Source of the DNA: Mycolicibacterium poriferae
GTDB taxonomy: Bacteria > Actinomycetota > Actinomycetes > Mycobacteriales > Mycobacteriaceae
DNA length: 64,000 nucleotides
Reading direction: 5' to 3'
Assembly: GCF_010728325.1 (NCBI RefSeq)
Contig: NZ_AP022570.1
Location: forward strand, 3,472,001-3,536,000
The translations under genes and the position numbers were made by a program. The notes under the pieces were generated by a model. That model was not told where the DNA came from, searched no databases, and worked only from the letters and a program-made list of their open reading frames with translations. Shown here piece by piece: positions 25,315 through 50,072 of the stretch; positions within the stretch are counted from its first letter, which is position 1; every line of letters starts with the position of its first letter.

Positions 25315-27090
25315 ATGCCGTTGCTTGAGTCGACCATTCCTGGCCTTTTGGCTGAACGCGCACGACTGCAGCCCGATGAGGTGGCCTACACCTTCATCGA
25401 CTACGACGTGGATCCCGCCGGGTTCGCAGAGTCGCTGACGTGGTCTCAGGTCTACCAGAGGGCCCAGGTCGTCGCGGAGGAACTCCTGCGCCACGGCCGC
25501 AAGGGGGACCGGGCGGCGATCCTGGCTCCGCAGGGCCTCGAGTACATCGTCGCGTTCTACGGCGCGATGACGGCCGGATTCATCGCGGTGCCGCTTCCGG
25601 TGCCGGCTCTCGGTCAGCTCGACGAGCGCGTCAACGGCGCGCTGCGCGACTGCCAGCCCGTCGCAGTGCTGACGACGTCGGCCGTCGTCAGCGACATCAT
25701 GACCTACGTGGGTGGCTTCACCGGCGGTGCGACCCCGGCCGTCGTCGAGGTCGATGCCCTCGACTTCCACTCGCCGCGCACCGCCGAGATGAACATCGGC
25801 GACCTGCCCGAGATGGCCTACCTGCAGTACACCTCCGGCTCCACCCGGGCACCGGCCGGCGTGATCATGACCCACCGGAATGTGATCGCCAACATCAAGC
25901 AGGTGTTCGACGACTACATGGAGCACCGCGACGGCATTCCACCGCAGGACATCACGATGGTGTCGTGGCTGCCCTTCTATCACGACATGGGCCTGATCCA
26001 GGGGGTGTTCGCGTCGCTGCTCACCCCGTCCGAGGACGGCGGCCTGCACGGCCGCCCGGCGATGCTGATGAGCCCGGTCGCGTTCCTGCAGAAGCCGGCA
26101 CGCTGGATCCAGCAGCTGGCCATCAACCCGCACGCCTGGTCGGCCGCACCCAACTTCGCCTTCGAGCTGTCGGTGCGCCGGACGTCCGACGCCGACCTCG
26201 AGGGCATGGATCTCGGAGGGGTCCTGGGCATCATCAGCGGTAGTGAGCGGATCCACTCGGCGACCATCCGGCGCTTCAACGAACGGTTCGCGAAATTCAA
26301 CATGCCCACCACCACGGTGCGGCCGTCGTACGGGCTGGCGGAGGCCACGCTGTACGTCATCTCCGCGCCGATGGGCCACACCCCGTCGACGGTGCGGTTC
26401 GACTACGAGAAACTCGCCGCCGGCCACGCCGAGCGGTGCGGCGCCGAGGGTGGCTCCGAGCTGGTCACCTACGGCGCCCCGCGGTCGTCGACGGTACGCA
26501 TCGTCGATCCGGAGACCCGCACGGAGAATCCGGACGGCAAGGTCGGCGAGATCTGGGTGCACGGCGAGCAGGTCGCGATGGGTTACTGGCGCAACCCGCA
26601 GCAGACCGAGCGCACGTTCGGCGGCGAGATGGTCGATCCGTCGGAGGGCACGCCGGTCGGGCCGTGGCTGCGCACCGGTGACCTGGGCGTGATGTCCGAA
26701 GGCGAGATGTTCATCATTGGCCGCATCAAGGACCTGCTCATCGTCGACGGCCGCAACCACTATCCCGACGACATCGAAGCCACCATCCAGGAGATCACCG
26801 GTGGCCGGGTGGCCGCCATCTCCGTGCTCGACGAGACCAGCGAGCAGCTGGTCGCGATCGCCGAGCTGAAGAAGAAGGGCTCCTCGGAGGCCGAGGCCCT
26901 CGACAAGCTGCGCGCGGTCAAGCGTGAGGTGGCGTCGGCGATCAAGCGCACGCACAGCGTGCGGGTCTCCGACCTCGTCTTTGTCGCCCCCGGCTCGATT
27001 CCGATCACCACCAGCGGAAAGATTCGGCGCTCGGCCTGTGTGGATCGCTACCGCCAGGACGAGTTCAGCCGTTTGGACGTCACTGCATGA
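25315..27090 (+). CDS. fadD26: Fatty-acyl-AMP ligase, FadD26-like (FadD-1)
   Basis: A 591-residue adenylating enzyme of the fatty-acyl-AMP ligase group, which activates a long-chain acid as acyl-AMP and passes it to a PKS carrier domain rather than to CoA. Seen are the P-loop YTSGSTRAPAGV near residue 172, LPFYHDMGLI, PSYGLAEATLYV, the adenylate-binding LRTGDLGVM and GRNHYPDDIE, and the C-terminal TTSGKIRRSACVDRYR. It matches M. tuberculosis FadD26 in length and order. GAAAGGA lies eight bases before ATG 25315. It overlaps PKS1 by ATGA, so the partner is almost certainly the carrier domain at the start of PKS1. The chain length of its acid is unknown. Confidence 0.92.
   Translation: MPLLESTIPGLLAERARLQPDEVAYTFIDYDVDPAGFAESLTWSQVYQRAQVVAEELLRHGRKGDRAAILAPQGLEYIVAFYGAMTAGFIAVPLPVPALGQLDERVNGALRDCQPVAVLTTSAVVSDIMTYVGGFTGGATPAVVEVDALDFHSPRTAEMNIGDLPEMAYLQYTSGSTRAPAGVIMTHRNVIANIKQVFDDYMEHRDGIPPQDITMVSWLPFYHDMGLIQGVFASLLTPSEDGGLHGRPAMLMSPVAFLQKPARWIQQLAINPHAWSAAPNFAFELSVRRTSDADLEGMDLGGVLGIISGSERIHSATIRRFNERFAKFNMPTTTVRPSYGLAEATLYVISAPMGHTPSTVRFDYEKLAAGHAERCGAEGGSELVTYGAPRSSTVRIVDPETRTENPDGKVGEIWVHGEQVAMGYWRNPQQTERTFGGEMVDPSEGTPVGPWLRTGDLGVMSEGEMFIIGRIKDLLIVDGRNHYPDDIEATIQEITGGRVAAISVLDETSEQLVAIAELKKKGSSEAEALDKLRAVKREVASAIKRTHSVRVSDLVFVAPGSIPITTSGKIRRSACVDRYRQDEFSRLDVTA

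Positions 27091-50072: not shown

Follow-up and report, generated by a model that had tools for sequence, protein, structure and literature searches.

The closest described relative of the locus analyzed here is PpsA-E, the phthiocerol synthase line of slow-growing mycobacteria. It comprises five polyketide synthase (PKS) proteins with distinct types of docking tail and helix, starts on an acyl carrier protein (ACP) loaded by a fatty-acyl-AMP ligase (FAAL), and is accompanied by the DrrABC exporter and the acyltransferase PapA5. Phthiocerol keeps a hydroxyl at the PpsA step. All these parts are found in Mycolicibacterium poriferae (assembly GCF_010728325.1, contig NZ_AP022570.1), in a window of 64,000 nucleotides (G000:C1:3472001-3536000) of a 5.93-Mb genome. 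However, the starter pair is doubled here, a fully reducing PpsC-type module is lacking, and PKS2, PKS3 and PKS4 are hybrids. It is likely to be a rewired Pps line in which two starts converge on a shared PKS4-PKS5 end, as read from docking types, domain origins and comparison with related loci.

The cluster lies entirely on the + strand, in the order type II thioesterase (TE), FAAL1, PKS1, FAAL2, PKS2, PKS3, PKS4, PKS5, DrrA, DrrB, DrrC and PapA5. The original prediction covered 27087..50072, exactly from the PKS1 start to the PKS4 stop. The pairing of a FAAL with an ACP-first PKS that marks a Pps-type locus occurs twice: FAAL1 (25315..27090; NF004509, 990 bits) stands before PKS1 (27087..32585), and FAAL2 (32712..34442; NF004509, 937 bits) before PKS2 (34439..39247). 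PKS2 was correctly said to start with a carrier domain in place of a docking helix; that PKS1 likewise begins with a carrier domain, with its own ligase in front, is an additional point. FAAL1 and FAAL2 fall into two separate, well-supported clades of the FAAL tree (FAAL2 of genome G405 is missing from it). PKS3 (39244..44679, starting at TTG 39244 or ATG 39253) and PKS4 (44679..50072) follow, and PKS5 (50069..54535; ketosynthase (KS) 68% identical to canonical E) is a PpsE-like release end of KS, acyltransferase (AT), ACP and condensation-like domains, with PapA5 and DrrABC adjacent. Five colinear A-B-C-D-E modules with a fully reducing PpsC are not found at this locus, and no enoyl reductase (ER)-type Pfam family is seen in any of PKS1-PKS5. 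Four-base overlaps join FAAL1/PKS1, FAAL2/PKS2, PKS2/PKS3 (with the TTG start) and PKS4/PKS5, PKS3 and PKS4 overlap by one base, and 126 bases separate PKS1 from FAAL2. Thus, FAAL1-PKS1 looks like a starter pair added ahead of a tightly packed FAAL2-PKS2-3-4-5 block.

The C-termini are SLLDSLFDSVESSS in PKS1 and SVLDELFDSIESSS in PKS3, each plus a few residues, and EDELLARLSERLS in PKS2. The last ACPs of PKS1 and PKS3 both carry LSATMLWN, and the two tails score 65 in an ungapped BLOSUM62 comparison, a value reached by 0/500 shuffles, so that chance likeness was rejected. The PKS1/PKS2 and PKS2/PKS3 tail scores (24 and 25) are random-like, being reached by 283/500 and 311/500 shuffles, respectively. 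Coordinates, motifs and shuffle test thus agree with the original prediction that PKS1 and PKS3 share an ACP motif and homologous tails from which PKS2 differs. By ACP identity, PKS1 and PKS3 are nearest canonical PpsA (66% and 47%) and PKS2 is nearest PpsB (71%). Profile typing gives the same assignment, with PpsA-type tails on PKS1 (20.3 bits; motif SLLDSLFDSVE, 32520..32552) and PKS3 (18.6 bits; motif VLDELFDSIES, 44602..44634) and a PpsB-type tail on PKS2 (39.3 bits; DAYDDLAEDELLARLSERLS, 39185..39244). The N-terminal helix of PKS3 (39289..39360) is PpsC-type (73.3 bits) and that of PKS4 (44679..44768) is PpsB-type (56.4 bits), and the PKS4 tail (49995..50069) is PpsD-type. No matching tail or helix score of the locus was reached by any of 2000 shuffles. 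As PpsA precedes PpsB and PpsB precedes PpsC in canonical loci, this code predicts transfer from PKS1 to PKS4 and from PKS2 through PKS3 and PKS4 to PKS5, the wiring proposed in the original prediction.

The code was applied to other loci of the genus. A search with the PpsE-like C-terminus gave matches at E<=1e-100 in 155/396 genomes drawn from the genus, and 65 pps-type loci were compared, comprising loci from 60 of those 155 genomes (the analyzed one included) and four named records. Among 20 named loci, ten were duplicates of genomes already in the set and were left out, as were six (L174, L176-L180) with other architectures or fragments; L171 and L172 are two contigs of one assembly. Tail and helix profiles were trained on eight canonical PpsA-E-like loci only and then applied to the rest. 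Canonical A, B, D and E are named from gene order and architecture, and the match of one canonical C gene to solved PpsC domains supports the naming. The out-of-sample tails are PpsA-type in 25/25 PKS1, PpsB-type in 29/29 PKS2 and PpsA-type in 30/30 PKS3, and the helices are PpsC-type in 29/29 PKS3 and PpsB-type in 30/30 PKS4. The typing table was made without frames holding only a ketoreductase (KR) and an ACP, except in nine loci; the pair counts include such frames.

Neighboring genes in the non-training loci (218 pairs; cut-offs of 8 bits for tails and 12 bits for helices) fit the code in all 99 pairs where a typed tail is followed by a gene with a typed helix (A->B 44, B->C 51, C->D 4). 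Without the KR-ACP-only frames the counts are 42, 51 and 4, and a tail cut-off of 13.8 bits, which exceeds the best shuffle, leaves 28, 51 and 4, with no strong pair off-code. Eight further pairs have weak tails, and among these five A->B and two B->C are on-code. D->E pairs number 55. An A-type tail precedes a starter gene in 40 pairs and one weak pair, mostly with PKS1 (or its type B counterpart, below) ahead of PKS2, which offers no docking helix. In the remaining 15, one end is untyped (14) or the first gene is a release gene (1).

Within the M. poriferae genome, a scan of 15 KS loci, the strongest of 21 KS-family matches (the other six are weak matches in frames of 386-555 aa), found a PpsB-type helix only on PKS4 (51.0 bits) and a PpsC-type helix only on PKS3 (76.0 bits), the next best score being 8.0. 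Another acceptor for the PKS1 tail among these 15 was thus rejected. The PKS1 tail itself is a near-fixed block of 11 residues, S[LV]LDSLFDS[VI]E, in 25/25 tabulated loci with a PKS1 end. The acidic linker ahead of it varies, and in most species a few residues at most lie beyond it. By typing, the locus would have two starters with matching exits into one shared acceptor.

Domain origins point to the same wiring. In a KS tree built with a quick method, PKS1 and PKS2 group with PpsA, PKS3 with PpsC, and PKS4 with PpsB and not PpsD (support 91). Domain identity and sliding comparison indicate that PKS1 (ACP-KS-AT-DHx-KR-ACP, where DHx is a dehydratase (DH)-like domain) is PpsA-like except for its AT. 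PKS2 (ACP-KS-AT-KR-ACP) joins a PpsA-type front, ACP and KS, to a PpsB-type KR, ACP and tail; PKS3 (KS-AT-KR-DHx-ACP) joins a PpsC-type helix and KS to a PpsB-like KR and a PpsA-like DHx, ACP and tail; and PKS4 (KS-AT-DH-KR-ACP) joins a PpsB-type helix and KS to a PpsD-type DH, KR, ACP and tail. In the sliding comparison, B and A origins are indistinguishable over a large part of the KR regions of PKS2 and PKS3, probably because some canonical A genes without a DH-like domain have a B-like KR. The breaks between origins fall around the end of the KS and within the AT, which fits PMC10661043, where boundaries around and within the KS are suggested as the better ones for PKSs. Input cassettes (helix and KS) and output cassettes (processing domains, ACP and tail) of a PpsA-B-C-D-E-like line are thus recombined in PKS2, PKS3 and PKS4.

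The architectures of the relatives can be written by giving each gene an input and an output, named after the Pps gene it resembles. The canonical form is then start-A, B-B, C-C, D-D, E. The analyzed locus and 31 others, several of them cut by contig ends, are start-A, start-B, C-A, B-D, E (type D). Three loci (type C) have only the PKS2-3-4-5 types, in that order (start-B, C-A, B-D, E). Fourteen loci are of type B, of which nine are C-A, start-B, C-A, B-D, E and the others are broken or partial. Loci of other kinds are seen in G192, G203, G206, G213, G252, G367 and G373. In type B, the gene at the PKS1 position carries a PpsC-type helix in 12/12 loci with a readable N-terminus (G407 and G431 are unreadable), and would thus take its chain from PKS2 and not from a ligase. 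The KS of this gene and that of the third gene are the same in G066 and almost the same in G228 and G073, and both middle genes have PpsA-type tails wherever both are readable. Type B may therefore be a fork-and-rejoin line, in which PKS2 feeds either middle module and both feed PKS4. In G066, G228 and G073 the KR of the other middle module is PpsD-type, and that of the first is PpsA-type in the two compared; with these differing KRs, a pair of diol and mono-ol would again follow.

Several individual loci depart from these patterns. The type B locus of G342 (L094/L095) has no visible ACP-first starter PKS, and only a KR-ACP frame of 800 aa, its tail PpsA-type, lies between the gene at the PKS1 position and PKS4. 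In G252 (L101-L103), a second pps-type locus, its PKS frames split, lies about 40 kb from the first. In G210 (L215/L216) the third PKS is broken by about 7 kb between the KS frame and the remainder, and in G085, G327, L166 and G165 the first PKS gene lies in several frames, by decay or sequencing error. Named relatives of PKS1 include those of Mycolicibacterium hippocampi, M. iranicum, M. parafortuitum and M. vanbaalenii, and to judge from such names the two-starter locus appears to be conserved across a mostly environmental clade of mycobacteria. A plasmid origin was rejected, as no plasmid record covers 80% of PKS1 (best among the matches listed, 11%).

In the favored mechanism, FAAL2 would load PKS2, and the chain would pass through PKS3 and PKS4 to PKS5 (route L), while FAAL1 would load PKS1, which would hand its chain directly to PKS4 and on to PKS5 (route S). 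PKS4 would be the meeting point, with the PKS1 and PKS3 tails competing for its helix. Route L would have four extensions and, given the KR domains of PKS2 and PKS3, two hydroxyls in 1,3 position, and route S would have three extensions and one hydroxyl. PapA5 would acylate twice in the former case and once in the latter, so that two lipid series are predicted. This presumes that the DH-like domains of PKS1 and PKS3 are not dehydrating, which is uncertain, though they keep the His of the HxxxGxxxxP motif in 25/25 and 29/29 sequences, respectively. They are taken as such because the domain is present in some canonical PpsA genes and absent from others, and phthiocerol retains the hydroxyl; among eight canonical PpsA genes, four have no such domain, three have it with His and one with Tyr. 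The PKS3 domain (43426..44238, motif kept) lies after the KR, an order found in all type D loci with a whole PKS3. All four ATs, those of PKS1-PKS4, have the motif VASH in the 21/21 type D loci examined, like 6/8 canonical D genes and unlike canonical A and B genes, which have VAPH (8/8 each). VASH in 2/8 C genes and VAPH in 2/8 D genes are deviations, both occurring in G064 (L108/L109), and may move a methyl branch. According to PMC3089613, the units used by PpsA-E are malonyl (three) and methylmalonyl (two). At a guess, all four ATs here might use methylmalonyl, giving strongly methyl-branched chains. More generally, we think it moderately likely that a small, fixed docking code serves the Pps-type lines, which cassette swaps have rewired into two-start convergent and fork-and-rejoin forms, either of which could give paired diol and mono-ol lipids.

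Several observations count against the convergent wiring. No PKS1-type starter stands directly before a PKS4-type gene among the 65 loci, and the PKS4 KS would have to accept two different chains. The median identity of PKS1 to the analyzed gene is 71%, compared with 77-80% for PKS2-5; of the 27 type D loci showing PKS1, three (G085, G327 and L166) have it split, and the last residue of its tail motif is altered in the split copy of L166. Several PKS1 and PKS3 tails are weak (down to 12.3 and 3.4 bits, with a shuffle maximum of 13.7), although their best class is the same throughout. One of the eight weak neighbor pairs is off-code (D->C in G213), and the neighbor pairs are orthologous and not independent, the code being built on gene order among related loci. 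The PKS3 helix is faintly like helix B (6.1 bits; 9/2000 shuffles as good) and the PKS4 helix faintly like helix D (4.8 bits; 24/2000).

Three other readings were considered. In phenolic glycolipid synthesis, PpsA is fed by Pks15/1 and FAAL29. The PKS1 chain could similarly be freed by the neighboring thioesterase, after which FAAL2 would re-activate it and load it on PKS2, so that the two starters act in series. The gene order FAAL1-PKS1-FAAL2-PKS2, with a ligase ahead of each starter, would suit this, and the loading of p-hydroxyphenylalkanoate onto PpsA-E by FAAL29, as stated in PMC11837247, is a precedent. However, a freely released chain would need no docking motif, and PKS1 keeps its PpsA-type motif in 25/25 loci. 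Moreover, the three type C loci have the PKS2-5 types without PKS1, the PKS2-5 frames are unsplit, where seen, in the three type D loci with a split PKS1 (L166 shows just PKS2 and a part of PKS3), and TE frames occur as well where there is no PKS1-type gene, for example in G267 and G390. Serial re-activation is thus unlikely. It also seems rather improbable that PKS1 is a relic, a duplicate starter with a tail merely inherited from PpsA, contributing little or nothing to a product made by PKS2-5. The faster change of PKS1 and its three split copies among 27 would be expected of a relic, but PKS1 is unsplit in 24/27 (two of these cut by contig ends), KS, AT, KR and ACP motifs are present in the analyzed copy (KR read by eye), the tail motif is near-invariant next to a variable linker, and conservation is slightly higher in FAAL1 (median 87%) than in FAAL2 (84%). 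Docking of the PKS1 tail to PKS2, with five modules acting in gene order, has only that order in its favor and is highly improbable, as PKS2 has a carrier domain where the acceptor helix would be and the typed helix after a PpsA-type tail is always PpsB-type (44 strong and 5 weak pairs). Convergence on PKS4 matches the tail and helix code of the other loci, the KS tree and the domain origins, and also fits the kept PKS1 motif and the sole PpsB-type helix; the predicted wiring is well supported by sequence comparison.

The locus had been described as being of the type that makes phthiocerol dimycocerosates (PDIM). This holds for the gene content but probably not for the product. No Mas, a single-module KS-AT-DH-ER-KR-ACP protein, was found among the KS-bearing frames of the genome, our own ER motif search being insensitive. 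The only KS-bearing frame with a PF13602 match is a two-KS frame of 3805 aa, and the 259-kb PKS is presumably Pks13-like. The failure to find a Mas-like synthase makes PDIM an improbable product, and PapA5 would then have to use a different acyl donor. The negative result agrees with PMC3089613, which reports that M. vanbaalenii PYR-1 and M. gilvum PYR-GCK have no mas. The same paper reports ppsC-E as absent in PYR-1; in contrast, a whole type D locus is found in BC8_1 (G239/L165), an isolate filed as M. vanbaalenii. The best PF03435 match in the genome (54.8 bits, C1:4309637) is a candidate trans-acting enoyl reductase.

The other genes of the cluster are as expected of a Pps-type locus. The type II thioesterase (23822..24727; PF00975, 2e-42) we take to be TesA-like, and a TE-type frame lies close to a FAAL in most tabulated loci. 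The exporter (54639..57348) consists of DrrA- (54639-55643), DrrB- (55640-56479) and DrrC-like (56326-57348) proteins, followed by the PapA5-like acyltransferase (57345..58628; NF006790, 768 bits with a cut-off of 716; PDB 1q9j, 430 bits). Upstream of the cluster are genes for a SecA-family protein (12017-14659), DUF881, MerR and bifunctional-nuclease proteins, and glycine dehydrogenase (20818-23964). An ARAGORN tRNA-His on the - strand at 45167-45252, within the PKS4 coding region, is probably a false call.

No description of a two-starter Pps locus was found in the literature searched, subscription papers being outside its scope; a reprogrammed PDIM pathway (Trivedi 2005) is mentioned in PMC2661021. 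A 2011 survey judged PDIM-specific PKSs to be confined to pathogenic strains, as put in PMC3089613. If the proposed wiring is true, phthiocerol-like loci would be a diverse family outside pathogens, the relatives of this locus would be ready-made rewiring experiments, and PKS wiring rules could be tested in harmless environmental strains. Alternative starters and branched lines have precedents elsewhere, among them those given in PMC7524897, and it is the two-starter Pps form that is new. In the anabaenopeptin and puwainaphycin/minutissamide synthetases (PMC7524897), two alternative starts likewise lead into one shared line, but those are cyanobacterial peptide synthetases, whereas here the two entries would lie one entire extension module apart and the evidence of sharing comes from docking types. 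The branched nonribosomal peptide synthetase/PKS of laxaphycin (PMC7524897) breaks colinearity and gives two product series from one cluster, as is predicted here; there a shared start leads to two ends, whereas here two starts would lead to a shared end. As in docking-coded modular PKSs with cis-acting ATs (PMC2661021), protein order is read from C-terminal tails and N-terminal helices, but here two donors at the same locus fit a single acceptor type. If the wiring is true, this would be a natural, conserved case of two PKS starts with one shared end, readable from four docking types.
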